Of a stretch of 62,309 nucleotides of DNA, positions 21,766-42,888 are shown in pieces. The translations under genes were made by a program, and so were the position numbers. Position 1 is the stretch's first letter, and every line of letters begins with the position of its first letter. The DNA is taken from the NCBI RefSeq assembly GCF_024124745.1, contig NZ_JAMXRU010000010.1:1-62309 (forward strand), in the 5' to 3' direction. The notes beneath the pieces were generated by a model, which saw only the letters and a list, made by a program, of their open reading frames with translations, was not told the origin of the DNA and did no database searches. The stretch comes from Aeromicrobium sp. CnD17-E (GTDB lineage: Bacteria > Actinomycetota > Actinomycetes > Propionibacteriales > Nocardioidaceae).

Positions 21766-22458
21766 ATGACCACCATCGGACTCATCGGCAGCGGAAACAT
21801 CGGCAGCACGGTCGCGCGTCTGGCCGTCGACGCGGGCTACGACGTCGTGCTCAGCAACCGGCGCGGACCGGACACCTTGCGCGACCTCGTCGAGCAGCTC
21901 GGCCCGCGGGCGCGCGCGGCGACCCCGGCCGAGGCGGCGGAGGCGGCGGACCTCGCGGTCGTGACGGTGCCGCTCAAGGCACTGCCCGACGTCCCCGTCG
22001 ACCCGCTGCGCGGCAAGGTCGTCATCGACACCAACAACTACTACCCCGAGCGCGACGGGCAGGTGGCACGCCTCGACGACGAGTCGACGACCACCAGCGA
22101 GCTCACGCAGGAGCACCTGCCGGAGTCGAAGGTCGTCAAGACGTTCAACAACATCTACTTCGAGCACCTCGCCCGCCTCGCTCGCCCCCACGGCGACCCC
22201 GAGCGGTCGGTGCTCGCGATCGCCGGTGACGACGCCGACGCCAAGCAGGTCGTCGCCGAGTTCCTCGACGCGATCGGCTACGACGCCCACGACGTCGGCC
22301 CGCTCGCCGAGGGCTGGCGCTACCAGCGCGACACCGCCGCATACGCCGGGCTCTACCAGACGCCGGACGCCGACTTCACGCCCGAGTCGGGCCGCCAGGT
22401 CACGCCCGAGCTGCTGCAGGAAAAGCTCGACGCGGCGCAGCGCTACCGCGACATGTGA
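21766..22458 (+). CDS. NADPH-dependent F420 reductase-like protein
   Basis: A 230-residue Rossmann protein: IGLIGSGNIGSTVARLAVDAGYDVVLSNRRGP at the N-terminus, ADLAVVTVPLKA in the middle, VVIDTNNYYPERDG and KVVKTFNNIYFEHL later. These fit the NADP oxidoreductase coenzyme-F420-dependent family (FNO-like), whose members reduce or oxidise F420 or act as small ketoreductases. It follows the LLM gene by 77 bp in the same direction, suggesting a functional link. Confidence 0.82.
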   Translation: MTTIGLIGSGNIGSTVARLAVDAGYDVVLSNRRGPDTLRDLVEQLGPRARAATPAEAAEAADLAVVTVPLKALPDVPVDPLRGKVVIDTNNYYPERDGQVARLDDESTTTSELTQEHLPESKVVKTFNNIYFEHLARLARPHGDPERSVLAIAGDDADAKQVVAEFLDAIGYDAHDVGPLAEGWRYQRDTAAYAGLYQTPDADFTPESGRQVTPELLQEKLDAAQRYRDM

Positions 22459-22472
22459 CCCGCCAACCATTC

Positions 22473-22488
22473 TTGACCGTGTGGTCAA
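22473..22488. promoter_or_regulatory. TetR operator 1 (overlaps -35)
   Basis: Perfect palindrome TTGACCGTGTGGTCAA. Its left half TTGACC (22473-22478) is also the -35 element of the promoter of the membrane-protein/TetR operon, 17 bp from the -10 TATGTT (22496-22501). Confidence 0.75.
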
Positions 22489-22499
22489 CAGTGCTTATG

Positions 22500-22515
22500 T
22501 TGACCACATGGTCAA
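22500..22515. promoter_or_regulatory. TetR operator 2 (overlaps -10 and start codon)
   Basis: Second palindrome TTGACCACATGGTCAA, 27 bp from operator 1. It overlaps the last two bases of the -10 TATGTT and contains the ATG of the membrane-protein gene (22508-22510). With 6 bases between -10 and ATG the mRNA is predicted to be leaderless, so the operator extends into coding sequence. Confidence 0.75.
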
Positions 22516-22912
22516 GAACTTGTCGCGCCCCACGCCGCAGCGCCACGGGGCACTGAGACTGGCCGCCGCCCTCGTGCGGGTGTACGTCGGGATCGTCGTC
22601 CTGACCCTCGCCGCGCTGGTGGTCCTGAGCCTGACAGCGCCCGGGCAGGCCACCGCGCATGCATGGGGCCACGCCGTCGTCGTCGCAGTGTTCGCCGTCG
22701 TCCTGCCGCTGCGCCTGCGTCGGGCGCGCGCGGGAGACCGAGTAGCGGTGCGGGCCGTCGGGATCGTCGCCGCCGTGCTCTTCCTGGTCAACGTGGTCGA
22801 GGCCATGCTGCCGGCGTTCCCGCTCTGGATGCGTGTGGACATGCTCATCACCGCGGTCGTCGTGCTCGGCGTGGCGCTCGACGTCGTCCGGTGGGCCGTG
22901 CGCCACCCTTGA
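22508..22912 (+). CDS. Small membrane protein of a TetR-controlled operon
   Basis: A 134-residue protein with four hydrophobic segments (about residues 22-42, 53-70, 83-103 and 108-127) and short basic loops such as RLRRARAGDRVAVR, so probably an inner-membrane protein with four helices. No family recognised. Translation probably starts directly at the mRNA 5' end. It is followed after 3 bases by the TetR gene, the likely controlling repressor. Confidence 0.8.
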   Translation: MVKNLSRPTPQRHGALRLAAALVRVYVGIVVLTLAALVVLSLTAPGQATAHAWGHAVVVAVFAVVLPLRLRRARAGDRVAVRAVGIVAAVLFLVNVVEAMLPAFPLWMRVDMLITAVVVLGVALDVVRWAVRHP

Positions 22913-22915
22913 CCC

Positions 22916-23539
22916 GTGCCCCCCACCTCAGAGAGCTCTCCGACGCGCAGCCGCCGGCGGACGCCCGCCGAACGGCGAGAGGAGATCGTCGAGGCTGCCA
23001 CGGCCGTGGTCGCTGAGCTCGGCTACGCGAACGCCACGCTCACCGAGATCACGCGACGGGCAGGCGTGTCGAAGGGGCTGCTGTGGCACTACTTCGACGA
23101 CCGTGACGACGTCATGCAGCACGCGGTCACCCACCTCGCCGGACGCCTGCGGGCGGCACTCGTCTCCGACGTCGACCTCGGCGCGCCGGTGCCCGAGGTG
23201 GTCCGCGCGGTCTTCGCCCGCACGGCGCTGTTCACCCGGACGCACCAGCGGGAGCTCCGGGCGCTCGACGAGATCGTGCACAACCTCCGGACGCCCGACG
23301 GGCGCCGTCGCATCACCCTGCTCGACTACGAAGAGGTCCACGCCGACCACGCCGCGCTGCTCGCCCGCGGGCAGCGCGACGGCACGATCCGCGCCGGCGA
23401 CCTCAGCACGCTCGCCTCGAGCTACCAGGCCCTGATCGACGGCATGATCGCCCACCTCCAGGCCCACCCCGACGTCGATCCTCCGACCTACGCGGACGGC
23501 GTCGCCGACCTGTTCCTGCACGGAGCGGCACTGCGCTGA
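22916..23539 (+). CDS. TetR-family transcriptional regulator
   Basis: A 207-residue TetR protein. The helix-turn-helix covers about residues 18-65: RREEIVEAATAVVAELGYANATLTEI, then RRAGVSKGLLWHYFDDRDDV. The rest is a helical ligand-binding domain. The GTG start at 22916 lies 3 bases after the previous stop. The paired palindromes at 22473 and 22500 in the operon promoter are its likely operators, so it should repress its own operon. Confidence 0.88.
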   Translation: MPPTSESSPTRSRRRTPAERREEIVEAATAVVAELGYANATLTEITRRAGVSKGLLWHYFDDRDDVMQHAVTHLAGRLRAALVSDVDLGAPVPEVVRAVFARTALFTRTHQRELRALDEIVHNLRTPDGRRRITLLDYEEVHADHAALLARGQRDGTIRAGDLSTLASSYQALIDGMIAHLQAHPDVDPPTYADGVADLFLHGAALR

Positions 23540-23576
23540 ACCACCCCGACGGCGGCGTCCCCCGGCGCGCACGTGA

Positions 23577-23610
23577 CGAGGCTCCCGGACCCTGTGGTCC
23601 GGGAGCCTCG
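23577..23610. terminator. Bidirectional terminator hairpin
   Basis: Perfect 15-bp arms (23577-23591 and 23596-23610) with a CTGT loop, placed between the TetR gene (ends 23539) and the convergent secreted-protein gene (ends 23633). It can serve both. Confidence 0.85.
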
Positions 23611-23632
23611 CCAGCCGAGAGCGGCCTCGGGG

Positions 23633-24172
23633 TCAGGAGATGCTGCAGGCGGGCAGCCCCAGGACGACGAGGGCGCAGCGGATGCCGGCCTTGTTGTTGG
23701 CGTAGTTCGTGTCCAGCGCCGCCGTCCGCGGGTCGGACAGCTCGAAGCTCCACTGGCTGAAGGCCGAGACCTCGACCGTCGAGAGCAGGAAGGTCCTGCT
23801 CTGCCCGGGCAGCAGCGGCTCCTTGAGGTACACGTCGCCGTCGTAGCCCGATCCGAGGACGCCGATGGCCCAGTCCTCCTGGATCTGCGGGTCGCCGAAC
23901 AGCCCGATCCCGACCGCGCGGTTCGAGTGGAAGGTGAACTGCGTGCCGGCCGGGATCGTCGTGTTGCCCTGGTTGCGCACGACGAAGCCGCGCTGGCCGA
24001 CGCCGGTCTGCGCGCTGACGACGATCTCGGGATGCCGGACGGGCGCCGGCGCTGCGGATGCCGTCGCCTGGGCGGTCTTCGTCTCGGCGGCGTTCGCCAC
24101 GGAGGCGGTCCCGACGAGCGAGCAGAGGACGGCGGCGACCAGGCCGACCGCAAACGTACGGGAAACGGTCAT
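23633..24172 (-). CDS. Secreted protein of unknown function
   Basis: A 179-residue protein with a classical signal peptide: basic start, hydrophobic core FAVGLVAAVLCSLVG, cleavage after VANA-A (about residue 28). The mature part is beta-rich, with an RNQGNTTIPAGTQFTF segment resembling CARDB-type adhesion folds and two cysteines near the C-terminus (Ile-Arg-Cys and Ala-Cys). An AGGAG site precedes the ATG at 24172. No specific family recognised. Confidence 0.75.
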   Translation of the reverse strand: MTVSRTFAVGLVAAVLCSLVGTASVANAAETKTAQATASAAPAPVRHPEIVVSAQTGVGQRGFVVRNQGNTTIPAGTQFTFHSNRAVGIGLFGDPQIQEDWAIGVLGSGYDGDVYLKEPLLPGQSRTFLLSTVEVSAFSQWSFELSDPRTAALDTNYANNKAGIRCALVVLGLPACSIS

Positions 24173-24200
24173 GATGACTCCTGTACACGAGGTGGAGGTA

Positions 24201-24220
24201 CGCGGCCCGGACGGGCCGCG
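24201..24220 (-). promoter_or_regulatory. Hairpin in the 5' leader of the secreted-protein gene
   Basis: CGCGGCCC (24201-24208) pairs with GGGCCGCG (24213-24220) around GGAC. It sits 29 bases upstream of the ATG on the minus strand. It may stabilise the mRNA or modulate translation; no riboswitch family recognised. Confidence 0.4.
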
Positions 24221-24612
24221 TGGTCTCACCATCGCCGCCACGGACGCGGCTCCCTCCGGACCGGAAGATCTCCGTGGCGTCGCGCCCGGAACTCCGTAAC
24301 GCCATCCCCTCGCGCCGGTGTCCACGGTCAGGATGCAGGTGTCGCCGCGTCGCGCCTCGGGGACATCTCGGCACAGCGGTGAGATCGGACGGCGGGCCGC
24401 CTCGAGACGCTCGCGAGCGCGACCGCGAGCCGCGTCAGTGCCACGCAGCACGGACCCGTGGGTCCAGGTCGCGGCCCCGCACGACTGACCGCGAGCCCTG
24501 CGAGGCCTGGTTTGATCGGCCGACCCGCACGGTGCAGACTGACCGAGGTGGTGGGCCGACCGAAGCACAGACGCAGGTGGGCACCGCCCGGGGATGGAAC
24601 GGAGGAGTCGTC
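24221..24612. other. Intergenic region between divergent genes
   Basis: No credible protein or RNA gene seen. Long open frames here have no supported start or family and are expected in sequence this GC-rich. Promoters for the divergent secreted-protein and cupin genes should lie here, but no clear -35/-10 pair could be assigned. Confidence 0.4.
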
Positions 24613-24684
24613 GTGGCCACACGGAGGATCGTGATCCAGCAGATGAGGACGAGACGGACCGCCGTCGTGCCCCGTCTCGGCTGA
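24613..24684 (+). CDS. Possible short leader peptide upstream of the cupin gene
   Basis: A 23-codon frame from GTG 24613 to TGA 24684 with a GGAGGAG site at the right distance upstream. The peptide is strongly basic (VATRRIVIQQMRTRRTAVV...). It ends 14 bases before the cupin ATG and could couple or modulate its translation. Chance occurrence cannot be excluded. Confidence 0.3.
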   Translation: MATRRIVIQQMRTRRTAVVPRLG

Positions 24685-24698
24685 CCGGAGGAACACGT

Positions 24699-25367
24699 AT
24701 GTCCAGTCCCCGCCTGCGCGATCATCCCGACCTCCTCTACACCATCGGCGACTTCGACGCCCTCTACCGGTTCGGGTCCGCGGGCGGCAGCCGTCCGATC
24801 CGCAGCCACATGCGCCGCGTGCGGGAGACCATCGCCGACGTCTTCGAGGACAACCCGGAGGTCATCGACCGCGAACCCGCGCGGCTCCCCGTCGTGAACC
24901 ACCTCGGGCGGGCGCTGGACCTGGGGTCCCGGGGTGACTTGAGCACTCTCAGCGACTCCATCCGCAGGATCTCCGATCGGCTGACCTGGGAGCACGGCTA
25001 CGAGAAGGTGCCGCGCGGCCTGGCGAAGAAGTACGGGTACTGCGAGATCGTCGGACCGCGAGGGCCGGTCGTGACCGACCGCATCGTCCTCGGGCTCGTG
25101 CTGTTCGCGCCCGAGGCCGTCTACCCGCAGCACCACCACCGCGGCATCCAGGAGTCGTACGTGGCGATAGCCGGCGAGTGGTCGGAGAACGACGGTGCCG
25201 TGCACGCACCCGGGTCCCTGATCCTCAACGAGGCGGGCCACGAGCACCGCATCACGACCGGACGTCAGTCCCCCTGCCTCCTGGCGTACTCCTGGCTGGG
25301 TCCCGCTGACCGGCTCATCGATCCCGCGATGCGCTTCTCGCCGCGTCGCCGCCCGACCAGACCCTGA
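24699..25367 (+). CDS. Dimethylsulfoniopropionate-lyase-like cupin
   Basis: A 222-residue protein. The N-terminal helical part ends in LPVVNHLGRAL (64-73) and is followed by a cupin with YPQHHHRGIQESYVAIAGEW (142-161), LNEAGHEHRI (176-185) and CLLAYSWLG (193-201). This order fits the DMSP lyase cupins (DddQ/DddL/DddW type), which release dimethyl sulfide from DMSP. Candidate metal ligands are His145-147, Glu152, Tyr154 and His181/183. The second His of the usual HxHxxxE pattern is Arg148, so activity is uncertain. A GGAGG site precedes ATG 24699. Confidence 0.6.
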   Translation: MSSPRLRDHPDLLYTIGDFDALYRFGSAGGSRPIRSHMRRVRETIADVFEDNPEVIDREPARLPVVNHLGRALDLGSRGDLSTLSDSIRRISDRLTWEHGYEKVPRGLAKKYGYCEIVGPRGPVVTDRIVLGLVLFAPEAVYPQHHHRGIQESYVAIAGEWSENDGAVHAPGSLILNEAGHEHRITTGRQSPCLLAYSWLGPADRLIDPAMRFSPRRRPTRP

Positions 25368-25475
25368 CACCGCGGCGGACCGGCGTGGACCCGCCCCCAC
25401 GCTTCGCCGTCTCACGGTGGCCGCTGCACGACCTCGGCGTCGATGCCGGGCACGACGACCAGCCCAGAGAACGAT

Positions 25476-25509
25476 GGAACCTCCGAACCCCTGAGGGTTC
25501 GGAGGTTCC
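25476..25509 (-). terminator. Hairpin, probably the displaced native terminator of tRNA-Pro
   Basis: Perfect 15-bp arms (25476-25490 and 25495-25509) with a CTGA loop. On the minus strand it would follow the tRNA 3' end by about 21 bases if the integrated element were removed. It now lies 17.4 kb from the tRNA. It may also terminate the cupin gene, which ends 108 bases earlier on the plus strand. Confidence 0.75.
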
Positions 25510-25530
25510 CGATGTCCCGAGACATCACAC

Positions 25531-25574
25531 GGTCGGGCTGACAGGATTTGAACCTGCGACCCCCTGACCCCCAG
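25531..25574 (-). repeat. Attachment site, left copy (44 bp, tRNA-Pro 3' half fragment)
   Basis: Identical to 42890-42933. On the minus strand it reads from the anticodon loop (CTGGGGG) through the T-arm to ACC. It has no acceptor 5' strand, D-arm or 5' anticodon stem, so it is not a functional tRNA. Confidence 0.97.
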
Positions 25575-25726
25575 AAACTTGCCCCGCATCCCAGGCCGTC
25601 CCATCGAGGGTCAGATGCTCACCGATTTGCTGCGTTACCAGTGGTTGGCGAGAAGGCCTCTCCCATCGAGTACCAGCCCGTCCAAGGCAGTGTGCACACA
25701 CAACTGCACGCACACGAAGGAGCAAC
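25575..25726. other. Left end of the element with integrase arm-type sites
   Basis: No gene. TGCACACACA (25693-25702) and TGCACGCACA (25705-25714) are directly repeated 12 bp apart. They match the pair TGCACGCACA at 42800 and 42811 near the right end, in the same orientation. Such pairs are expected as arm-type binding sites for a tyrosine integrase. Confidence 0.65.
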
Positions 25727-25939
25727 ATGGTCAACGGAAGACCCTCCCAGGCTGCGATCGACGCCGCCGGCGAAGTGCTCGCAGCTGCGTCCTTCGCCAT
25801 CTCGCGCATGACTCCGCGCGAACAGGCCGAGGCGGCGTGGTCGCCGACCTCACGCTTCACAGTCGCCGAACTTGAAGACCAGATCCGAGCGGATCGCGGG
25901 CTTGCGCCGATCCACGCTCGGGTGGGGGCGGAGGAATGA
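25727..25939 (+). CDS. Small hypothetical protein of the element
   Basis: A 70-residue protein, first gene at the left end, with an AAGGAG site 4 bases before ATG 25727. SRMTPREQAEAAW and FTVAELEDQIRADRGL are predicted helices. Its stop overlaps the next start (ATGA), so it is co-translated with the HTH gene. No family recognised. Confidence 0.7.
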   Translation: MVNGRPSQAAIDAAGEVLAAASFAISRMTPREQAEAAWSPTSRFTVAELEDQIRADRGLAPIHARVGAEE

Positions 25940-26253
25940 CCGACTTGCCGGAACGTCTCACCGTTGAGGAAGTTGCGGCCATCACTCGTGAGTCCGCGTT
26001 CACGATCCGCAAGCGGTGCCGCGACGGCGTCCTGCCCGCAGCCAAGCACGGCCGCTCCTGGTGGATCCTCCGCGCCGACCTCGACCGCTACATGCGAGCC
26101 ACCAACACGCCGGCAGCTGGCACCGAGAAGCCGGTCCACCGCTCCACGATCCAGAAGCGTGAGGCGCAGCGTCGGGGTGGCGCTGCATCCCAGCCATCCA
26201 TTTTCCTGACCGCGGACCAGAAGCAGCGTTCGAACGGAGGTGGGAAGTACTAA
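25936..26253 (+). CDS. Excisionase-like helix-turn-helix protein
   Basis: A 105-residue protein. Residues 5-55 form a MerR/Xis-type winged helix: RLTVEEVAAITRESAFTIRKRC, then GVLPAAKHGRSWWILRADLDRYM. The C-terminal half is polar and probably disordered. Small proteins of this type next to an attachment site often act as excisionase or element regulator; here it is at the end opposite the integrase. ATGA overlap with the gene before. Confidence 0.75.
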   Translation: MTDLPERLTVEEVAAITRESAFTIRKRCRDGVLPAAKHGRSWWILRADLDRYMRATNTPAAGTEKPVHRSTIQKREAQRRGGAASQPSIFLTADQKQRSNGGGKY

Positions 26254-26262
26254 ACGCAGGAC

Positions 26263-26297
26263 GGCCCCGCCGCGTGTTCCAGCACAACGGCGAGGCC
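26263..26297 (+). terminator. Terminator-like hairpin after the HTH gene
   Basis: GGCCCCGCCG (26263-26272) pairs with CGGCGAGGCC (26288-26297), one mismatch, 15-nt loop, starting 9 bases after the TAA stop. It would separate the first two genes from the following three-gene run. Confidence 0.55.
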
Positions 26298-26336
26298 TTG
26301 ACCCAACCAACCTTGCACTAGAAGGAGGACGGATCC

Positions 26337-26630
26337 ATGAAGGACCGTACCCGCAACACCCGACAGCACGACGACGCGACGGTGGGGAAGCCGTCGACGC
26401 CGTCGGACCCCTTCGCCGACTTTACGATCGACGAGCTCAAGGCGGCGCTCGCCTGGCATCGCGGCGACCGCAGCGGTGAGCCGCCGGCGCCCCTGCTGGC
26501 GTTCCTCGAGTACCGCCTCGCCGCCCAGGAGCACTTGACCGAAGAGGAGGCCACGCTCGTCGCCTCGACGACCGACCTCGAGAAGCGCTTCAAGATCCTC
26601 GACCGCGCCTACGCCAGGACAGTGTCGTGA
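26337..26630 (+). CDS. Hypothetical protein of the element
   Basis: A 97-residue protein with a strong AAGGAGG site before ATG 26337. FADFTIDELKAALAWHR and EEEATLVASTTDLEKRFKILDRAY are predicted helices; no cysteine motif or membrane segment. Its stop overlaps the next start (GTGA). No family recognised. Confidence 0.7.
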   Translation: MKDRTRNTRQHDDATVGKPSTPSDPFADFTIDELKAALAWHRGDRSGEPPAPLLAFLEYRLAAQEHLTEEEATLVASTTDLEKRFKILDRAYARTVS

Positions 26631-26896
26631 GCGCGTTGACGTGCCCGTTCTGGTGCCTCGTGCACGGCGACGGTGTCACTCTCGCCGACCGGCCTCATGA
26701 GGGCATGCGAACGGTGCTGGACGGGCTCGAGGGCGGGTCGCTCGCGGTAGTGCTCTTGCAGCACGAGCGGAGGGCCGCGGCGGAGCTTGAGTTCGACATC
26801 GACGGACGATCAGTGCTGCTGCGACCCGGAGACGGGCAGCGGATCATCGATGCGATCCGGGACGCGGTCGGGGTCGCCATGCGGGCCGCACGATGA
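26627..26896 (+). CDS. DUF6907-like small protein with CPxWC motif
   Basis: An 89-residue protein beginning MSALTCPFWCLVHGDG. The CPFWC...H arrangement is typical of the small DUF6907-type proteins found on actinobacterial mobile elements and in their hosts. The rest (VVLLQHERRAAAELEFDIDGRSVLLRPGDGQRI) looks like a compact beta/alpha domain. GTG start with GTGA overlap to the gene before and ATGA overlap to the gene after. Function unknown. Confidence 0.7.
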   Translation: MSALTCPFWCLVHGDGVTLADRPHEGMRTVLDGLEGGSLAVVLLQHERRAAAELEFDIDGRSVLLRPGDGQRIIDAIRDAVGVAMRAAR

Positions 26897-27153
26897 GCGT
26901 CCAGGCGACCGAGACGTCCGCAACGGGAAGGGGGCAGCTCCCTGTCGGTCCTCTCGTCGCGCGAATTGCGGCACGAGGCGGCATCGGGGCCTGTCTCGAG
27001 CGGGAGCCGGACCTCGACCGGGTTCGTCTGGAGCGGACGTTGAACCGCGGCATCGTCCGAGGGCATCTGTCTTTCCGCACTGCTGACACCCTCGCGATCA
27101 AGATGCTTGGACTGCATCCGATGTCTGTCTGGGGAGACGACTGGCTCGACTAG
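26893..27153 (+). CDS. Hypothetical protein of the element
   Basis: An 86-residue protein, ATGA-coupled to the previous gene. The C-terminal half, with RLERTLNRGIVRGHLSFRTADTLAIKMLG and HPMSVWGDDWLD, resembles an HTH-like segment ending in the HPxxVWGxxW motif common to small actinobacterial element proteins. Possibly a DNA-binding accessory factor. Confidence 0.65.
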   Translation: MSVQATETSATGRGQLPVGPLVARIAARGGIGACLEREPDLDRVRLERTLNRGIVRGHLSFRTADTLAIKMLGLHPMSVWGDDWLD

Positions 27154-27163
27154 CAGGTCAGGG

Positions 27164-27433
27164 GTGTGGCGAGGCGGGGGGGGTCCGTTCGACCGGCTCC
27201 TCGCCTTCCTCGCCCGCATCGCAGACGGAGACGGCGTCCCGAGCAACTCCCCCGTCGCCGTCCTTCGCAACCGCGTCATCAAGATGCGCGTCTCCGGCGG
27301 CAGGGTCAACGAGACCGAAGCCCTCGCTCTCGTCATCTACGCCTGGAACGCGCACCGAGCCGGCGAGACCAGAATCAAGCTGCAGATGCCGAAGGGCGGG
27401 CTCACTCCGGAGAACTTTCCTGAACCGCGATAG
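27164..27433 (+). CDS. Hypothetical protein of the element
   Basis: An 89-residue protein. GTG 27164 is the likely start, 10 bases after the previous stop. The segment FDRLLAFLARIADGDG, then NRVIKMRVSGGRVNETEALALVIYAWNAHRAGE and KLQMPKGGLTPENFPEPR, is compositionally normal. A run of eight G (27176-27183) lies within codons 5-7. Its end overlaps the convergent cyclase-like gene by 32 bp. No family recognised. Confidence 0.6.
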   Translation: MWRGGGGPFDRLLAFLARIADGDGVPSNSPVAVLRNRVIKMRVSGGRVNETEALALVIYAWNAHRAGETRIKLQMPKGGLTPENFPEPR

Positions 27434-28442
27434 CGCCCGACCCCACCGCGGGGCTCGAAGACTGCGCAGTTGGCAGCTCGTCAACCGGTACGGTCACGAC
27501 GCCGTCGTCCTCCGGGGGGCTCTCCCCGCGATCCTCGTACTCCAGCCGGTCCAGATAACCCTGCAGGGGGTCGATCGGCTTTCCTGTGAAGTGGCCGTTG
27601 CCCGATTCCGGGAGGTAGAGTTTAAAAGGCCACTGAGGGCTTGTGTAGCACGCTTCGCAAAGCTCGTGAATTTGCTCGAGAGCCGTGGCGGGATCGTCGA
27701 ACGGAGCAAACGCCTTGTGAACTGGCGAGTCGTGTTCAAGGTCGAGCGCGAACACCGGGTACCTCTGGTTGCGCCACACCCCCTTGAGACCATCCGAATG
27801 TAGAAGTCGCATCGGAGGCAGCCTGTACTCCGCTTGGGGTCCGGGAGTTTTTTCGAAACAAGCAAGGGCAAAGGACACTTCCACCGACATGGTGAAGTAT
27901 CGCTCATCGCACTTGCTGAAGACTCTGAAGCCGGTGTCGATACTCGGCCCGAAGTAGTCGTACAGAAACTTCGTATGCCTACGGTGTCCGCGGAGAGCTT
28001 CCTGATTCAGCATTACGACATCTTTTCCCGAGGTCTCACTCCCGGGATTTCTCGGGATAGTCGACATGCTGTCGGGCCCCGGAAAAGTCGCGATGAACGC
28101 CCCACCTTTTGTGCCGAGCGTCGTATCGTCAAGGCTGTTGGTCGAGTATCCAGCCATGGCATCCAGCCAAGTGATGATGGCGTCGTGGATGTCCTGTTCT
28201 CGCGAAACGTCGCACGTAAAGATCAACTCATCCCCAACCGGCTTCCATAGATGGAACGTCAGGTTTGTGGTCTTCTGGCGGGTTTGCGCGGAGCGAAGTT
28301 CCTGGGGGAACTCCCTATAGAACTGAAGGAAGACCTTCTGCCAAGGGTCTCGATCGCGGGCAGATGCTTGCTGTTTGAAGTGCGTCGACCCAGTCAGGTC
28401 GCAGGACAGGAACAACGTCGACTGACCCGCAGCGGCCGTCAC
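27402..28442 (-). CDS. Class III nucleotide-cyclase-like protein (Pycsar-cyclase-like)
   Basis: A 346-residue protein with the landmarks of class III nucleotidyl cyclases: FLSCDLTGSTHFK with metal ligand Asp15, KPVGDELIF with Asp71, and GPSIDTGFRVFSK (165-177) with a possible transition-state Arg173. FK after the GST motif and the W..F..FY..FP helix resemble prokaryotic anti-phage cyclases (Pycsar), as far as I can judge by eye. No membrane or sensor domain; the C-terminal 50 residues are acidic and low-complexity. The GTG start overlaps the ImmA stop (GTGA). The product nucleotide is unknown, and enzymatic activity is inference. Confidence 0.55.
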   Translation of the reverse strand: MTAAAGQSTLFLSCDLTGSTHFKQQASARDRDPWQKVFLQFYREFPQELRSAQTRQKTTNLTFHLWKPVGDELIFTCDVSREQDIHDAIITWLDAMAGYSTNSLDDTTLGTKGGAFIATFPGPDSMSTIPRNPGSETSGKDVVMLNQEALRGHRRHTKFLYDYFGPSIDTGFRVFSKCDERYFTMSVEVSFALACFEKTPGPQAEYRLPPMRLLHSDGLKGVWRNQRYPVFALDLEHDSPVHKAFAPFDDPATALEQIHELCEACYTSPQWPFKLYLPESGNGHFTGKPIDPLQGYLDRLEYEDRGESPPEDDGVVTVPVDELPTAQSSSPAVGSGAIAVQESSPE

Positions 28443-28927
28443 AGACCCAACACCTGGGCCCGCACCTCCGCAGCAGCGGGGGAAACCTCAAAACGCTCCG
28501 CCAACGCCCACGCGTCTCCGCCGAACTCATGAAAGGCACGACGGAACTCATTGGCCGGCATGAGCAGAGCCGATGCAAAGACGTTCGCCTCGGTTTCCGC
28601 CCTATTCCTGCCTCCACGTGCGAAAGCTTTGCTGGCAGCTTCCTTCGCCACGACGTAATGCAGAAAATAGTGCCCAAGTTCATGCGCGATCGTAAACCGG
28701 TCTCGGCGCTGCGAGGTGAATCGAGGGATGAAGACGGTAAAGCGACCCACCTTGTCCACGTGCAAGGACTCGCCGTCACTCTCGTACTCGACCGTGCCGC
28801 CGAGCTTCTTCAGCAGAGCATCGAGGTCAGCGCGGCCATCCTCGTCGTAGACCTCGTAGACTTGACCGACGCGCTCCGCGTAGTTCGCGATCGTCGCGTT
28901 GGTCAGGTTCGACGCCTTTGTACTCAC
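28439..28927 (-). CDS. ImmA/IrrE-family metallopeptidase
   Basis: A 162-residue zinc protease. The motif HELGH is at residues 82-86 in FTIAHELGHYFLH, and ETEANVFASALLMP (111-124) supplies the third ligand Glu113, as in ImmA and IrrE. Such enzymes cleave XRE-type repressors. The GTG at 28927 is chosen because GGAGGA lies 4-9 bases upstream; a start 42 bp further up lacks this. It is coupled to the cyclase-like gene (GTGA). A possible target is the XRE protein encoded at 41047. Confidence 0.85.
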   Translation of the reverse strand: MSTKASNLTNATIANYAERVGQVYEVYDEDGRADLDALLKKLGGTVEYESDGESLHVDKVGRFTVFIPRFTSQRRDRFTIAHELGHYFLHYVVAKEAASKAFARGGRNRAETEANVFASALLMPANEFRRAFHEFGGDAWALAERFEVSPAAAEVRAQVLGL

Positions 28928-28939
28928 AGTTCCTCCGCC

Positions 28940-28964
28940 TCGAGGACTGTTGGAGAGTCCTCGA
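28940..28964 (-). promoter_or_regulatory. Inverted repeat next to the ImmA ribosome-binding site
   Basis: TCGAGGACT (28940-28948) and AGTCCTCGA (28956-28964) are perfect 9-bp arms with a 7-nt spacer, directly upstream of the GGAGGA site. A TAGAGT -10-like hexamer lies just upstream on the minus strand. It could be an operator at the transcription start or an RNA hairpin beside the ribosome-binding site. Confidence 0.5.
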
Positions 28965-29105
28965 CTCACACTCTAGCGCGCACCCGTGCCGTTGGGGCTG
29001 TGACGCGCGGGCGTGTTTCGTCACAGCATCCCAGTCCATTTCCGCCATCATTCGGCAGCCCGTGCGATTAACATAACTCCCAAGGAGTGGCGGAGTGGCC
29101 GACCC

Positions 29106-29462
29106 CTAGCGCCAGACTCCGCCGTTGGGCAGGCCGCCCGTGGTCGACGTGGTGTGGTGGGCGCTACGGCCGAAGTTCCAGGTCGCTTCAGCACGCTGCG
29201 TCGCAAGGTCGGGGTCAGCGCCAGCTTCAAACAGGAGCGCCGGGGCGTGCAGGTCCCGTGGCTGCTGAATGCCCGGGTGTGCCAGAAAGCCTCCCAGGGC
29301 CATCCCGCACGCTTCCGCGAGGATGTCCGTCCGTCCCTGAGCGATCTCGCGGAGCTCCGCGACAGCCGACTCTCGGTCGACGCCTTCACGAGCGAGGCGA
29401 CGCGCGGCGGTCGTGAGCCGGATCTCGAGGTGCCGGTCGGGGCTGAGTCGTTGGCGGGCCAT
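29106..29462 (-). CDS. Hypothetical protein of the element
   Basis: A 118-residue protein from ATG 29462. LEIRLTTAARRLAREGVDRESAVAELREIAQGRTDILAEACGMALG is a strongly helical, repeat-like segment similar to small proteins often carried by actinobacterial integrative elements. The C-terminal part (about residue 65 onward) looks less structured. No signal peptide. Function unknown. Confidence 0.6.
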   Translation of the reverse strand: MARQRLSPDRHLEIRLTTAARRLAREGVDRESAVAELREIAQGRTDILAEACGMALGGFLAHPGIQQPRDLHAPALLFEAGADPDLATQRAEATWNFGRSAHHTTSTTGGLPNGGVWR

Positions 29463-29521
29463 GGCGGCAACCTACGGAGTCCCACCGACTCTTCCTCTAC
29501 GAGGCGCAGCCGGCACCTTGG

Positions 29522-30223
29522 TCAAATCCGATTCCGCTGCGACCACTCTCGAAGTATCGCGGGGTCCATTCGGCCGACCTCGGGCCACCGCAGCTTCACT
29601 CCCGCGGCGACGCGCTGGCAGAGCTTGTACGCCTCAGCTGCGTCCTCTGGACGGCATCCCTTCTCCAACATGTGGGCCCGCACTTGCTCAGGCGGCAGCA
29701 CGAGGCGCGCATCGGCCAGGATCTTGATGGTGGACTTCACCATGCCGTAGCCCAGCGTTCCACCTAGATTGCCGACGAGACTCTCCAAGCCAGCTCTGAC
29801 CGTTCTGTCTAGGCCTACGTTTCCGGACGGCACGAACGCCTCTCCCAGCAGTTCCGCCTTGGATCCGTTCGCCCATGCCGTCACCCACGGCAATGGCGAC
29901 GTGGGGGCCTGCCAGGGCAGCAGGCACATCGCTCGGATGTCGCGATCGTGCGACAAGAGCTCTGTGAAAGCCTCCGCCGTGGGCCACACGGCCAGCACCG
30001 GTCCGTTCGGGAAACCGCGCCCACGCTTCGAAACTCTGACATTCGGCATCTTCGCTAGAGCGGAGATCCCCTGCCATTCGCTCAACACATAGGCGTTCGG
30101 AACGTCGAGCAAGATCTCCCCACCGAGTTCTCGCAGTTGCCGCAGGATCCATCGGACCCCAAGACGCACCGCGCCGGACTTGTCCTCGGCGCCAGGGGTG
30201 ATTGCACACGGATACTGGCTCAC
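29522..30223 (-). CDS. Hypothetical protein, divergent leaderless gene A
   Basis: A 233-residue cytosolic protein. ILLDVPNAYVLSEWQGISALAKMPNV and PNGPVLAVWPTAEAFTELLS suggest an alpha/beta N-terminal domain; the C-terminus (ILADARLVLPPEQVRAHMLEKG) is helical. No catalytic motif or family recognised. A -10 TAGCCT (30230-30235) lies exactly 6 bases before GTG 30223, so the mRNA is probably leaderless. Divergent from 30283. Confidence 0.7.
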   Translation of the reverse strand: MSQYPCAITPGAEDKSGAVRLGVRWILRQLRELGGEILLDVPNAYVLSEWQGISALAKMPNVRVSKRGRGFPNGPVLAVWPTAEAFTELLSHDRDIRAMCLLPWQAPTSPLPWVTAWANGSKAELLGEAFVPSGNVGLDRTVRAGLESLVGNLGGTLGYGMVKSTIKILADARLVLPPEQVRAHMLEKGCRPEDAAEAYKLCQRVAAGVKLRWPEVGRMDPAILREWSQRNRI

Positions 30224-30282
30224 TGGTCCAGGCTAGAGCGAAGATCTGACGAATTGTCGGGTCCGAACCCTACGATCGACTC
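30224..30282. promoter_or_regulatory. Back-to-back leaderless promoters
   Basis: Minus strand: TAGCCT (30230-30235), 6 bases from GTG. Plus strand: TACGAT (30271-30276), 6 bases from ATG. Both -35 regions fall in the same 30246-30259 stretch (TGACGA on plus, CGACAA on minus), so the two promoters overlap and may exclude each other. Confidence 0.55.
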
Positions 30283-30699
30283 ATGCCCCCATCTCGCGAC
30301 GCTCAGCGGAAGCACGTCGTCATCGGGCTCGCTCTCGGGGTGCTGCTCGAGGGCGTCGACGCAGTGTCGTCCGACAAGATGAAGTTCGCATTCGCCTTCA
30401 ACCGTGCCTGGAGCGCATGGCCCAAAGCCAACAACTTTCGAGGGATCTCGGGTCCTTTTCCCGGCGACTTCATCTGGGGTGGACTCAGCAAGTCCGCCAA
30501 CAGGCAGATGGCGTTCGCGGCCTGGGACGGCTCGCAGCGCGGTTGGTGGATCGCCTACTCGCCCATGGAAGGCATCACGCTTCAGGATGCCGTGGAGATT
30601 CACTCAGATGAGCGGGCGATTGAAGCCGACTGGCGCCACCTAGCTCGACTCTTCATCGAAGCGATCGGTGATGAAGGCGTCGGTGTTATCGACGACTGA
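30283..30699 (+). CDS. Hypothetical protein, divergent leaderless gene B
   Basis: A 138-residue protein. RKHVVIGLALGVLLEGVDAV is a hydrophobic N-terminal helix, followed by KFAFAFNRAWSAWPKANNFRGISG and FAAWDGSQRGWWIAYSPMEGITLQDAV, rich in aromatic residues. The C-terminus is a charged helix ending in acidic residues. No family recognised. It shares a 59-bp promoter region with the divergent gene at 30223, which suggests a functional pair. Confidence 0.7.
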   Translation: MPPSRDAQRKHVVIGLALGVLLEGVDAVSSDKMKFAFAFNRAWSAWPKANNFRGISGPFPGDFIWGGLSKSANRQMAFAAWDGSQRGWWIAYSPMEGITLQDAVEIHSDERAIEADWRHLARLFIEAIGDEGVGVIDD

Positions 30700-30712
30700 G
30701 CGCGAACCGTGC

Positions 30713-30811
30713 TCATCCGCGACCCGCCCTTCGGTTGCTGTCGTTGAATCGCTCACGAACCGCGATCCCGTAGAGGCCGATGCCGTAGTGCCCGAGACCG
30801 TAGGCCGTCAT
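30713..30811 (-). pseudogene. Remnant of a phage minor tail protein gene
   Basis: A 32-codon frame starting MTAYGLGHYGIGLYG, coupled to the tape measure stop (ATGA 30808-30811). The YGxGxYGxGxYG pattern is typical of the N-terminus of tail proteins encoded just after the tape measure gene in actinophages. It ends after about 17 further unrelated residues, so the tail module appears to have been cut here. Confidence 0.55.
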
Positions 30812-33800
30812 CCGAGCACCCCCACCTTCTGCTGGCCGGCGTCCAGGTTGTGCTGGACCAGGCGGGCGACCTCGCGAGCCAGGGACGTCTCGTCGAACTT
30901 CATCGTGACCGTCTGCTCGAGCTTCGTGACCTGCTGACGCTGCGCGGCCGACAGATTCCCCGACCAGCCCCGGGCGGCCATCCACGCTGGGTCAGTCGTC
31001 AACTGGCCGTAGGCGCCAGCCACCCCCTGCAGGGTCGCGACCTGGGCGTTCACGCGCCGCAACGCGTTCGCGTCGGACAGGTAGTGCCGGGCCAGCTTGA
31101 TCGCCGACTTCGACGGGCCGGCCGCCTGCAGCTGCTGCAGCAGCCACGGGGCCGCGCCACGCTTCTTCAACTGGAACAGCAGACTCGTCAGCGTCGCCAT
31201 GTCCGCGATCGACCGGTCCAACGCCCGCTCCACCTGCTCAGGCGTGGACAGTCCCTCGATTGACGTGTTGCTGCTGATGAACGAGTCGGTCGCCTGGCGG
31301 CGGTCCTCGCGCAGCTGGCGGCGCTGCTCGGCGCGGTTGTCGCGGTACTCGTTGTACTGGTCCGGGCTCATGCCACGGCGGCGGGCATCCCGCGACGCGC
31401 GCAGCGTGCCCGCGTACTCGCGGCGGGTCTCGATCAGATCCTGCCGCGCCTCAACCCGGTCCAGGCCACGCAGCACGTACCGCGTCGGGCGGGTGTCCTT
31501 GCCCTTCGGTTTCTTGCCGTACTTCTCCCGCTCGTTCAACGACCGCTGCAGGTCCCGCATTCGGATCCGCAGCCGGGTCAGCTCGAGCGAGGAGACCGCG
31601 TCGACCTGTCCACCCGACGCGAACCCGGGGACGTCGCCCAGCAGGTCCGACAGGTTGAGGCCAGCGTTGATTGCGGCCAGCCACTGGTCGTTCTCGCGCG
31701 AGGAGCGTTCGTTGATGATCCACTCACCGGAACGCACCATGAGCGTCTTCCCGGCGGGGCCTCGCGCGATGACGTTGTCCAGCATCGGGTTCGACGGGGG
31801 CCGCCCGGGCACCACGCCACCGGATGCGTACCCCTGCGGCACGACTCCGCCGGTGGCTGCGGCCGGCTGGATGGGGATGCTGATCCCGGGCAGGCTGTTC
31901 GCGAAGGACAGCAGCCCGCCGATGGCCTGCCGCGCGGCTTGCGTGTTCGCGTCGACCTTGAGCGTGGCCGAGTCGCCGTCGACGGAGTAGAGGTAGCCGA
32001 CGGCCTCTTGGATGTCGCGCGTGGCGAAGTCCTTCGCCCGCATGATCGTCTCGACCTCTTCGGGCGTCAGACCGTACTGCCGTGATAGGGCGACCACGTC
32101 CTCGATCGACTTCACGGCGCCTGGCGTGGCGATCCTGGTCGTGACTTCGGCCGGCAGCTTGATCAGTTCGTCGGCGTACTTCCCCAGGCCAGCGGAGGCG
32201 AGCCTGGTCCGCTCACCGAGGTCCTCGAACTGCCACAACGCTCCGCGGGTGCCTCCACCACCGCCGAGGTCCTCACCGAAGATCTGATTGCGGAGCTCGA
32301 GCGTCTCGCGCTGCTTCTCGTTCGCCGTCATCGCCGACTGGCGCAGATCCTCGTACCGCTTCGGCAGGGACTCGAGGAGCTTGTCGTTGTAGATCTCGCC
32401 CAGGATGCCGGCGATGCCGATCACCCCGGCGGACCGGCCCAGTGCGGTCTTGGAGACGGCGCCCAGTGCCGTCCCTCGCGCTGCGCCTCCTGCGGCCGAC
32501 CCGGCGGCGCTGGCGCCGGCTCCGGCGGCTGCAGCGCCGGCGGCTCCCGGCAGGACCTTCGGCACGGCGTAGCGCGCGAACGCCCCGGTCACGAGGGCGG
32601 TCTGAGCCCACTCCGGCATCGCGTTGAACGCATCGGCTACGGCCTTGATCGCTGGGGCGAGGGCTTCAGCTGCGTCGGCTGCGATGCCCATCGTCGTGGC
32701 GACAGCGGGCAGGGTGGACTCCGCGGCCGGTCCGAGCGTGTCAACGAGCCAGACCGCAGCGTCCCCTGCCTTGCGACCCCACTCCTCGAAGTCGCCGTCG
32801 GCGGCCACATCCGAGAGCCGGTCCGCGACCTCAACGATCGCGGGCGCCAGACCCTTGCCGAACTGGATCTTCGCGGTCTCAATCTGCCCGGAAAGGTTCT
32901 CGAGCGCTCCCGAAGTGCCCGACATCGACGCGTCCGCGAGACGCTGCGCCGCGCCCAGGTCCGACGTCTGCCGAATGTAGCCCTCAAGCCCCTCGGCGCC
33001 CTCCTGGATGAGGACGTTCGCCGCGCGGCGGGCATCAGCACCAAAGATGGTCGTCAACGCGGCCGTCCGCTCCTTCGCGGACATGCCACCGAAAGTCCGC
33101 TGCAGCCGCTCGGCGATCTGCGTCGCGGACACGAACTCGCCGTTACTGTCGGTGAACGTCAGACCCAGCTCGGCCATCGCCTGAGCCTGTTCCTTCGTCT
33201 GCGGCACCAGACGCGTCAACATCGTCCGCAGCGACGTGCCCGCGTCCGAACCCTGGATGCCCGCGTTCGAAAACGCCGCCAGGATGCCCGTGGTCTCCTG
33301 CACTGACAGGCCCGCCGAGTTGGCCTCCGTGCCGGCCTGAGCGAGCGCCTGCGTGATGTCCGAGACGTCCGCGCTCGAGGCGTTCGCGGCGCCCGCGAGA
33401 GCCGACACCGCCTCGTCGGTCTGCGACGCCTCCAACCGGAACGCGCCCATCGTGTTGACGACCGAGTTCGCCGCCACGTCCAGGTCCAGGCTGCCCGCCG
33501 CCGCCAGGGTGAGCGAGTTCTTCAACGCGCCAGCCTGGATCTGCGCCGGCGACAGACCACCCTTCGCCAGCTCGAGCATCGCCGACGCGGACTCCTGAGC
33601 AGAGAACACCGTGTCAGCACCGAGCTTCATCGCCAAGTCGTCCAATTCGGACATCGCAGCCTTGGGCGCCTTCGTCTGCTGCGCGACCTGACGCATGGTC
33701 CGCGAGTACGCGGCCTCCAGCTGCACCGAGTCCTTGACGAGCTTCGCGATGCCGACCGTCGCGACCGACCCGGCTGCGACCTGCATCGCGTTGCGGATCT

Positions 33801-33921
33801 GGAATCCCGACCGCTGTCCCTGCGAACCCAGCGCGACAGTGTCGCGGGACGCCTGCTGCAAGGCGGTCTTGTACTGCCCAGCATCGAGCGTCAGAACGAC
33901 CCTGACGGACCGGTCAGCCAC
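30808..33921 (-). CDS. Phage tail tape measure protein (TP901 family)
   Basis: A 1037-residue protein. The TP901 core is at residues about 50-330: LEAAYSRTMRQVAQQTKAP, LAKGGLSPAQIQAGAL and STSLRTMLTR-like motifs (here GTSLRTMLTRL). An Ala/Gly-rich hydrophobic stretch follows near 480-540, then YASGGVV repeats and VRSGEWIINERSS, then helical C-terminus. It sets tail length in siphoviruses. The GTG at 33921 has AGGAG upstream and overlaps the previous gene by 8 bases. It is full-length with no frame disruption, although no other structural genes are present. Confidence 0.93.
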   Translation of the reverse strand: MADRSVRVVLTLDAGQYKTALQQASRDTVALGSQGQRSGFQIRNAMQVAAGSVATVGIAKLVKDSVQLEAAYSRTMRQVAQQTKAPKAAMSELDDLAMKLGADTVFSAQESASAMLELAKGGLSPAQIQAGALKNSLTLAAAGSLDLDVAANSVVNTMGAFRLEASQTDEAVSALAGAANASSADVSDITQALAQAGTEANSAGLSVQETTGILAAFSNAGIQGSDAGTSLRTMLTRLVPQTKEQAQAMAELGLTFTDSNGEFVSATQIAERLQRTFGGMSAKERTAALTTIFGADARRAANVLIQEGAEGLEGYIRQTSDLGAAQRLADASMSGTSGALENLSGQIETAKIQFGKGLAPAIVEVADRLSDVAADGDFEEWGRKAGDAAVWLVDTLGPAAESTLPAVATTMGIAADAAEALAPAIKAVADAFNAMPEWAQTALVTGAFARYAVPKVLPGAAGAAAAGAGASAAGSAAGGAARGTALGAVSKTALGRSAGVIGIAGILGEIYNDKLLESLPKRYEDLRQSAMTANEKQRETLELRNQIFGEDLGGGGGTRGALWQFEDLGERTRLASAGLGKYADELIKLPAEVTTRIATPGAVKSIEDVVALSRQYGLTPEEVETIMRAKDFATRDIQEAVGYLYSVDGDSATLKVDANTQAARQAIGGLLSFANSLPGISIPIQPAAATGGVVPQGYASGGVVPGRPPSNPMLDNVIARGPAGKTLMVRSGEWIINERSSRENDQWLAAINAGLNLSDLLGDVPGFASGGQVDAVSSLELTRLRIRMRDLQRSLNEREKYGKKPKGKDTRPTRYVLRGLDRVEARQDLIETRREYAGTLRASRDARRRGMSPDQYNEYRDNRAEQRRQLREDRRQATDSFISSNTSIEGLSTPEQVERALDRSIADMATLTSLLFQLKKRGAAPWLLQQLQAAGPSKSAIKLARHYLSDANALRRVNAQVATLQGVAGAYGQLTTDPAWMAARGWSGNLSAAQRQQVTKLEQTVTMKFDETSLAREVARLVQHNLDAGQQKVGVLG

Positions 33922-34219
33922 GAGCAGCTCCTTCCGTAGGCCTGCACGCGCCGAGGATGATTCGGGCGCGAAGCGCACCAACGACGGCAGCCTCTGGCTG
34001 TCCGGAGAGTCGCGAAAGTTCAGAGACCGCCGCCGACGCCATCCCCGCGAGAACGAAGGCCATCTCTGGGGCACCGTCGTCGACGACGGCGTCGCTGAAG
34101 AGCTCCTCGAGGGTCGGAGTGCCGCCATCACCCGTCATCCGCAGCAGCACCTGCGAGACGCGGTCTACCTCGTCCCGCTCCACACCGATGACCCGCATCG
34201 GCGCATACCGGCCACGCAC
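33914..34219 (-). CDS. Hypothetical protein upstream of the tape measure gene
   Basis: A 101-residue protein overlapping the tape measure start by 8 bases. MRVIGVERDEVDRVSQVLLRM and MAFVLAGMASAAVSELSRLSGQPEAAVVGAL are predicted helices. The position before a tape measure gene is normally taken by tail assembly chaperones with a slippery frameshift; no slippery heptamer was recognised here, so that role is only possible. Confidence 0.65.
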   Translation of the reverse strand: MRGRYAPMRVIGVERDEVDRVSQVLLRMTGDGGTPTLEELFSDAVVDDGAPEMAFVLAGMASAAVSELSRLSGQPEAAVVGALRARIILGACRPTEGAARG

Positions 34220-34220
34220 G

Positions 34221-34904
34221 TCAGACTCCCTGGCTCAAGGGACTGGAAGCTAGCGCCGCTTCGACTGACCAGACAGCCGACTCGCCAACCAGGCAGTCTG
34301 GCCAAAACTCACGCTCCGGCAGTCCGAAGACGGAACCATCCTGGATCGACGCCTGCGAACGAACGAGGGGCCGCGGATCCTCACCGGCCAGCAGCATGCG
34401 CAAGGAACGCGCTCGCAGCTCTGCGATCTTCACCGGAAGCGTCAAACGGTCTGACACCATCGGCTTCTTGAGTCGACGAATCTCCCCAGTGAACTCACTG
34501 CGCTGTTCTTCGAACGCGGGCGCGAACTCACCTTCATGAGCCGCAAGACGCTGCAACAGGCCGTTCGTCTTCTCCTGGTGCTTTGCGAGCACAGCTCGCG
34601 CGGCTGCTGCCGTGTCGTCGTAGTGATCCGCCTCTAGTCGAAGGACGTGCCGGCGAGCCGCCAGCACCTTCGGGGCGACAGCCTCCGCTGCAGCGTCAGC
34701 GACCTCCACGGCGTACGACAGACTGGCGATCTTTTCCGCGTAGCTCTCCGCTTGGGACGGATCGTCAACGACCGCAGATCCCATCTCGGCGCGAGTGGCT
34801 GCGAGAGCGAGACGACCGTCCTCCGCCGCCCTCTCCCATGACTCCCGCGACGCCAGGAGCGAACGAACACGGTCCCCGACTGCAGCACGGTCCTGAGCAG
34901 TCAT
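34221..34904 (-). CDS. Coiled-coil hypothetical protein
   Basis: A 227-residue, mostly helical protein; residues 20-160 (ESWERAAEDGRLALAATRAEM, VLAARRHVLRLEADHYDD, EEQRSEFTGEIRRLKKP) have coiled-coil character. It is coupled on both sides: ATGA with the gene before and 1 base to the gene after. It could be a structural or scaffolding factor of the same tail-related operon. No family recognised. Confidence 0.65.
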   Translation of the reverse strand: MTAQDRAAVGDRVRSLLASRESWERAAEDGRLALAATRAEMGSAVVDDPSQAESYAEKIASLSYAVEVADAAAEAVAPKVLAARRHVLRLEADHYDDTAAAARAVLAKHQEKTNGLLQRLAAHEGEFAPAFEEQRSEFTGEIRRLKKPMVSDRLTLPVKIAELRARSLRMLLAGEDPRPLVRSQASIQDGSVFGLPEREFWPDCLVGESAVWSVEAALASSPLSQGV

Positions 34905-35191
34905 CGGGCACCTTCTGTCGACGAATCGAGCTTCGCCCGCTCCTGCTCGACCACGTTCAACAGGTCGAACCGGACCCTCGAGGATCCGAACATGCTGCGG
35001 GCCAGCCCCGCCTCCCGGAAGCTGCCGTACGTCCCGCGAGCCAGGGAAAGAGCAGCCCGCTTCGCATCAGCCTCGGAAAGCCCGATGCGGCGAAAGTCCG
35101 CCACGTCCCGTTGGCCCCCCGACTCCCGCATGTCACGCACACGACCGAAGATCCGTGCCCGCTGCGCGTCGTTCTCAGCTCTGCTGCTCAT
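34901..35191 (-). CDS. Hypothetical protein of the tape-measure operon
   Basis: A 96-residue basic protein from ATG 35191 (ATGA overlap with the HTH gene upstream, ATGA overlap downstream). DVADFRRIGLSEADAKRAALSLARGTYGSFREAG suggests a short helical bundle. No family recognised. Confidence 0.65.
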   Translation of the reverse strand: MSSRAENDAQRARIFGRVRDMRESGGQRDVADFRRIGLSEADAKRAALSLARGTYGSFREAGLARSMFGSSRVRFDLLNVVEQERAKLDSSTEGAR

Positions 35192-35652
35192 CCGGCCTGC
35201 CGACCCTTCCTGTGGAGATACTCGACGACCGAGTCCTTCTCGATCAGCCATCGCCCTCCTTCTAGCCGGCCCTTGAGGACACCCTGCTTGGCAAGCCTCC
35301 CGGCCCACTGCGGCGATGCCCCCAAGAGCCGGCCAGCCTGCGAGCTGCCAACCCAACCCGTACTCGCCGGTTCCAGAGGAGAACACACAGACCGTCTCTC
35401 ATCAGGACCGTGTTTCGCGCCCTCGGTTTCGGCAGCGAAACTACTTCCGCCGCCGCCCTCCAAGACCGACCGCCACTGCTCCGCAGCCGCCTGCAACTGA
35501 GCACGCCCTTGAACCAGATCCCGCACCGTCACCTCACTGCCGGACAGCCGCCCCCCTTCGACCGCTCTCCGCCACGCCTCGGCTGGCACCTGCGACAGCA
35601 GCCAGTTCGCAAGGTAGGGCGACACCACCGCGAATCGAGTGGCCTCACTCAT
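35188..35652 (-). CDS. Protein with C-terminal excisionase-like helix-turn-helix
   Basis: A 154-residue protein. Residues about 100-150 (GSSQAGRLLGASPQWAGRLAKQGVLKG, WLIEKDSVVEYLHRKG) form a MerR/Xis-type winged helix. The N-terminal half (FAVVSPYLANWLLSQVPAEAWRRAV) is helical and unassigned. Unusually, the DNA-binding part is C-terminal. Overlaps both neighbours (8 and 4 bases). Confidence 0.7.
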   Translation of the reverse strand: MSEATRFAVVSPYLANWLLSQVPAEAWRRAVEGGRLSGSEVTVRDLVQGRAQLQAAAEQWRSVLEGGGGSSFAAETEGAKHGPDERRSVCSPLEPASTGWVGSSQAGRLLGASPQWAGRLAKQGVLKGRLEGGRWLIEKDSVVEYLHRKGRQAG

Positions 35653-35992
35653 CGCTGCCGCCCTCCAGAGCCGCCACGAGCTCCGCCCACACCTCATCGG
35701 TCAGCAGACGGGTAAGAGACCGGCGAAGTGCCTCTCTCGACGTTCCACCCGTGGCTGCGGCGATCACCGCGAGATGCAGTGCCGCACGCATCGCCACCCG
35801 GTCGGTCGTCCGCGAAAGCACCCCGTGAGCGGCCATCAGCGACTGACCAGGGTCATGCTCACGCGTCGCTGCGATCACCATCCGCAGGGCGACCTGCAAC
35901 GGCTCCTCGAGCCCTGGCTCGGCGCACGCCGGTGCATCGAGCTGATCGGCACGGCGACGCAACCACCCGGCCACGCGCGCCCTCACGTCCAC
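35645..35992 (-). CDS. Hypothetical protein of the tape-measure operon
   Basis: A 115-residue all-helical protein (VRARVAGWLRRRADQLD, LMAAHGVLSRTTDRVAMRAALHLAVIAAATGG, LRRSLTRLLTDEVWAELVAAL). GTG start overlapping the ART-like gene end by 10 bases and overlapping the HTH gene by 8. No family recognised. Confidence 0.65.
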   Translation of the reverse strand: MDVRARVAGWLRRRADQLDAPACAEPGLEEPLQVALRMVIAATREHDPGQSLMAAHGVLSRTTDRVAMRAALHLAVIAAATGGTSREALRRSLTRLLTDEVWAELVAALEGGSDE

Positions 35993-36531: not shown

Positions 36532-36567
36532 TACCGTCCACCCCAACCCAAACCCAAAGGAGCCGCC

Positions 36568-37469: not shown

Positions 37470-37482
37470 CCAGGCAGCACAC

Positions 37483-37803: not shown

Positions 37804-37842
37804 GAGTCAAGAGGCCAGCCGCTGACCTGCGACGATGCGCCC

Positions 37843-37863
37843 AGTGCGTGCACTGTGTGTGCA
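37843..37863 (-). repeat. Internal inverted pair of integrase arm-type-like repeats
   Basis: On the minus strand TGCACACACA (37854-37863) is followed by TGCACGCACT (37843-37852). This repeats the left-end pair in the same order and similar spacing, but on the opposite strand, in the middle of the element. Confidence 0.6.
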
Positions 37864-37873
37864 CCCAGCGCCC

Positions 37874-40937: not shown

Positions 40938-40990
40938 TCAATCCTCCAGGGGTACGATCCGACTCGATTCAGGATGGCTCCCCGAAACGG

Positions 40991-41036: not shown

Positions 41037-41046
41037 AGGAGTTGAA

Positions 41047-42875: not shown

Positions 42876-42888
42876 CCTGCTATTTCTC

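Follow-up and report, generated by a model that had tools for sequence, protein, structure and literature searches.

A class III nucleotidyl cyclase-like gene paired with an ImmA/IrrE metallopeptidase gene, a candidate mobile signalling and defence unit

The described systems with which the gene pair reported here was compared are Pycsar, CapH+CapP, ImmR/ImmA and the class III adenylyl cyclases. Pycsar combines a PycC cyclase with either PycTM or PycTIR. CapH+CapP has been described as an ssDNA-activated protease with an HTH repressor, controlling immune operons (PMC13373217), and ssDNA is reported to switch on both CapP and PprI (PMC13373217, PMC10904395). An earlier computational extension of the class III cyclases comprises the DUF2652 cyclase-like proteins, in a paper whose main text mentions no peptidase (PMC4886424); DUF2652 gave no match to the cyclase of our locus. 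The pair resembles Pycsar in its class III cyclase fold, its two metal Asp residues, the PycTM-type genes in five relatives and its mobile settings, and differs from it in that its cyclase is unmatched by the PADLOC PycC models, that a protease partner accompanies 72 of the 108 cyclases compared and that no PycTM-like ORF lies near the pair at our locus. The open-access literature yielded no description of this protease and cyclase pair, no such pair in print without an HTH partner, and no nucleotide-gated protease of such a kind. We place the pair outside all three of Pycsar, CapH+CapP and ImmR/ImmA; by analogy, it may work like Pycsar with a switch like that of CapH+CapP.

The window, that is the whole stretch of 62,309 nucleotides analysed here, belongs to Aeromicrobium sp. 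CnD17-E and carries on its minus strand an ImmA/IrrE (M78) metallopeptidase gene (28439-28927, 162 aa), overlapping a class III nucleotidyl cyclase-like gene (27402-28442, 346 aa). The cyclase gene runs from a GTG start at 28442 to 27402 and the protease TGA stop occupies 28441-28439, so that stop and start share the GTGA at 28439-28442; in a check against the sequence, the coordinates, the strand and the overlap in the original prediction all proved correct. Its protease start at 28927 (GTG, 162 aa) was likewise preferred over the mechanically called first start at 28969 (176 aa), supported by a GGAGG 4 bases upstream, and the closest viral relative begins about three residues or less from this start. 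The 1-kb bins at 27 and 28 kb have a G+C content of 62.5% and 59.3%, the other bins of the surrounding element lying at 63-71%.

That element, predicted from the beginning, was confirmed as real by a 44-bp exact repeat, a tRNA-Pro, and integrase and XRE genes sited next to the tRNA. It measures 17.4 kb (25531-42965), and its left attachment repeat (25531-25574, 44 bp) is identical to the right one (42890-42933), which lies inside the tRNA-Pro gene (42889-42965). The integrase (41586-42875, plus strand) matched phrog_1 at 2.3e-74 and the XRE-type repressor candidate (41047-41589, plus strand) phrog_3 at 1.3e-7 and others, while a primase/helicase-like gene (38594-39913, minus strand) and a tail tape-measure gene (30808-34131, minus strand) matched phrog_10729 at 3.2e-45 and phrog_1533 at 3.8e-82, respectively. 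None of the ten element proteins scanned matched a capsid or large terminase family; for one of them a terminase small subunit came up weakly (E 0.0015), a match that may only reflect an HTH. The element could be a phage satellite or a prophage in decay. Relatives of the tape-measure gene occur in 4 of the remaining 48 genomes of the genus; in the 19-20 kb around them, none of the 21 further element proteins had a match. A shared element backbone in the genus, which would have allowed an argument from the cargo site, thus did not emerge.

The original prediction had required a cyclase fold and named the residues Asp15, Asp71 and Arg173. The predicted model of the 346-residue protein shows the cyclase fold, and the three residues are present and invariant in all 92 aligned relatives. 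A profile of the cyclase matched Guanylate_cyc proteins (E 2e-9), with Asp15 and Asp71 aligned to the two invariant Asp of 12 of these proteins. The usual position of the transition-state Asn is Asp169 in 92/92 relatives. The likeness to mammalian tmAC, Ma1120 and Rv1900c covers the fold, the metal Asp pair, the Arg, the base-specifying Lys/Asp positions and a C-terminal LKG, whereas the window family differs from these enzymes by the Asn to Asp replacement and by an extra C-terminal segment, with an identity of about 9-19%. We take K67 and D162 to be the base-specifying positions, with roles as in class III cyclases; they point to ATP as the putative substrate, a pyrimidine nucleotide being also possible.

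The cyclase matched the phage family phrog_18024 (2.8e-30), annotated as of unknown function, and searches of Pfam, NCBIfam and PADLOC did not give the window protein a name. The PADLOC PycC models did not match it at E values up to 10, nor six of its relatives at E up to 1; in a comparison run, the PycC fragment of locus L144 matched eleven of them. At this locus (L144 1-1839), the fragment is followed by a 238-aa gene and then by a PycTM gene, in what looks like a Pycsar operon enlarged by one gene. No PycC structure appeared among the 50 structure matches listed, which bears neither way on kinship, and two designed TIM barrels (5e-5) and a capsid protein (0.008) returned by PDB-chain sequence searches were taken as chance matches. 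In one deep clade, the cyclases carry long C-terminal parts (L107 4938-6353, L081 4950-6305 and L005 3827-5413), those of L107 and L081 with a match to a NUDIX-like domain and that of L107 also matching the PADLOC candidate PDC-S07; phiCD27 orf37 has by eye a similar long C-terminal part, without a Pfam match.

The partner protein was matched by Pfam Peptidase_M78 at 1.9e-20 and combines HExxH with a Glu in the M78 fold. The HELGH motif stood as predicted, whereas Glu113, proposed as the key glutamate, did not: the invariant residue is Glu111, the first of an ExE pair, and position 113 is Gln in several relatives. The closest solved relative is CapP, from which the protein differs in that the region of CapP beyond residue 182, its C-terminal third, has no counterpart here. 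The window protease consists of the catalytic domain only and no cyclic-nucleotide-binding domain was recognised in it. Two variants were noted among related loci, a Dokdonella protease (L053 4324-4941) that lacks the HExxH motif beside a still open cyclase frame, and a second ImmA/IrrE gene that precedes the pair on a Mycolicibacterium plasmid (L003 3623-4198).

In order to follow the pair across genomes, relatives of the cyclase were collected from annotated phages (seven records) and plasmids (five), from which six regions were taken, and from a genome scan, of which the best 80 of 161 cyclase relatives were used, and a viral scan, which contributed 50. The resulting 139 cyclase ORFs were reduced to 137 and then to 108 non-redundant ones, the window included, after removal of L002, a duplicate from the window's own genome, of one L075 fragment and of closely similar copies; the viral loci L167 and L168, both with a protease beside the cyclase, stand outside the 108. 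By the protease model, a protease gene lies directly upstream on the same strand in 72 of the 108, is absent in 34, and 2 are cut by contig ends. The wide co-occurrence on which the original prediction depended was thus borne out, and a recurrence of this extent rules out a chance pairing. By source, the paired share was 47/80 for genome loci, 19/21 for viral loci and 5/6 for record loci. With starts as mechanically called, 69 of the 72 pairs overlap or lie no more than 25 bp apart, and the order, protease first, is fixed.

The cyclase family is rare: among 49 genomes from the genus, and likewise among 396 from the phylum, just one carries it, in both cases the window's own. The paired rows of the tree fall in Actinomycetota, Pseudomonadota, Verrucomicrobiota, Spirochaetota and Planctomycetota, and phages of C. 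difficile (Bacillota) bring the pair to six bacterial phyla in all. Pairwise distances of protease and cyclase at 61 loci correlated at 0.86, a value to which common host descent contributes, and 999 permutations reached at most 0.17. In the cyclase tree (103 rows), 32 of the 34 partnerless rows fall into two clades, one with 22 rows and one with 10, in which all labelled rows are alphaproteobacterial, the remaining two partnerless rows being L042 and L137; the solo rows include L030-L041 and part of L058-L088. These solo cyclases keep identical metal Asp and Arg residues, which indicates that not every family member depends on the protease.

The likeness to Pycsar claimed at the outset held in part: PycTM-type genes adjoin the pair in five loci, whereas the cyclase found no PADLOC PycC match and no PycTM-like ORF was found around the window pair (22401-34000). 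In the Methylomonas/Methylomicrobium loci L045 and L048, the PycTM-type gene (PADLOC 2.3e-21 and 1.3e-20) precedes the protease by 23 and 15 bp, and the cyclase begins 187 and 68 bp after the protease. The gene of L107 (PADLOC PycTM 9e-26) is placed 18 bp upstream of the protease, and its top match is a 2TM effector model (7.3e-36), with PycTM ranking lower. That of L112 (9.3e-24) lies downstream, with a 4-bp overlap with the cyclase stop, and phiCD27 orf36 (2.9e-31) runs convergently, with 63 bp between it and the cyclase stop; a gene with an identical score is found in the orf36 position on 23 viral contigs. The L045 and L112 genes, the two submitted to Pfam, scored above the cut-off for PycTM. 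L107 and phiCD27 share one deep clade of the cyclase tree, which leaves at least three branches on which the association arose, several of these rows being long-branched. A search model built from the four same-strand copies, which it re-finds, detected no further PycTM-like ORF in pair loci or solo cyclase loci at E up to 1, and none within 22401-34000 of the window, although more distant effectors could be missed by it.

The window genome has a PycTM-family gene on a different contig (L141, contig C157); it was dropped as a candidate effector, being also present in the pair-less genome G007 (L140). At these loci it stands beside a SatD-family gene (L140 776-1462, Pfam SatD 4.2e-7) and a second gene that is SatD-like by eye, a grouping that could be another small system. 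In L009 the pair is immediately preceded by the defence genes GajA/GajB (Gabija), and L017 has a SIR2-like gene upstream; DruA, mad3 and PD-T4-3 occurred in an uncontrolled tally over 107 neighbour ORFs.

Our leading reading, which we hold tentatively and at slightly under an even chance, is that the pair forms a mobile signalling-and-defence unit, Pycsar-like with a built-in protease switch; it may represent an undescribed branch of nucleotide-based phage defence. Sequence comparison shows that a class III cyclase whose metal Asp and Arg residues are preserved and an ImmA/IrrE protease are co-inherited, with no HTH partner that recurs. Infection, perhaps through ssDNA as for CapP and PprI, would activate the protease, which would release the cyclase by cutting either the cyclase itself or an inhibitor; the released cyclase would make a cyclic mononucleotide, and a receptor such as PycTM would then stop the cell. 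Since no PycTM lies near the window pair, the receptor there would be encoded elsewhere or would be the protease itself. We prefer a protease-controlled cyclase in view of the reported activation of CapP and PprI by ssDNA (PMC13373217, PMC10904395), and a membrane or other receptor fed by it in view of PycTM, the only known signalling effector found next to the pair on several branches. The weakest step, drawn by analogy, is that the protease would act before the cyclase. In arriving at this somewhat guarded estimate we counted in favour the fold, the catalytic residues, the pairing, the distance correlation, the PycTM-type genes, the defence neighbours and the nearness to CapP, and against it the missing PycC match, PycTM in only 5 of 72 pairs, the 34 of 108 solo cyclases, the Asn to Asp replacement in 92/92 relatives, the 2TM model as best match in L107, and the phage copies L110, L111 and LE1 near a repressor gene.

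The protease has a real chance of being a new kind of effector. The pair could form a separate class of defence, with the cyclic mononucleotide of a new-family cyclase turning on a protease effector, or with the protease licensing the cyclase, and with PycTM as an optional addition; we regard this as unlikely, though not strongly so. In an order of events opposite to our leading reading, infection would be sensed by the cyclase, whose product would turn on the protease as an effector or as a regulator cutting a cellular or phage protein, and the PycTM copies would be additional, second effectors. It fits the far more frequent presence of the protease (72/108 cyclases) than of a PycTM-type neighbour (5/72, the window pair not among them), and also the window, with no PycTM-like ORF and three neighbour proteins without a PADLOC match; the bare catalytic domain of the protease, with no recognised cyclic-nucleotide-binding domain, and the existence of solo cyclases speak against it, and we consider it unlikely.

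The pair could also act as a lysogeny switch, the protease cutting the element's repressor, as ImmA does on ImmR, with the cyclase-like protein as the trigger, as the original prediction had alternatively suggested. The protease belongs to the ImmA/IrrE family, and an HTH repressor gene is found upstream of it in L110, where it is a CI gene, and in L111; LE1 and a Leptospira plasmid carry an HTH gene on the downstream side of the pair. Positional support at the window was lacking: in contrast to ImmR/ImmA, the XRE gene (41047-41589) is not adjacent to the protease, lying about 12 kb off, and neither Pfam (two genes) nor PADLOC (three genes) gave an HTH match for the genes that precede the protease (29106-30603). 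Among 106 of 113 small upstream ORFs (60-160 aa long, at most two from each locus), five HTH families were each found on a single ORF, and among 107 of 162 larger neighbour ORFs at genome loci, with 69 viral neighbour ORFs outside the set, no HTH family among the 25 most frequent of 113 families occurred on two or more. These partial tests leave a CapH/ImmR arrangement as a rule unsupported; the pair differs from CapH+CapP in that no CapH-like HTH gene recurs and its protease is tied to a cyclase instead. As the pair also occurs on plasmids, beside Gabija and beside PycTM, we judge a lysogeny switch improbable. Least probable of all is a toxin-antitoxin-like pair, with unchecked cyclic nucleotide synthesis toxic and the protease degrading the cyclase to keep its level low: the gene overlap, the fixed protease-first order and the mobile elements agree with it, whereas solo cyclase clades exist and the L053 pair has kept its cyclase gene beside a protease without HExxH.

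If our leading reading is true, the pair would add a cyclase family and a layer of protease control to nucleotide-based phage defence, and would point to what uncharacterised genes of the known phages phiC2, phiCD27 and LE1 may do. It would also offer a tractable system for how an immune cyclase gets switched on, a step that to our knowledge is poorly understood for Pycsar.
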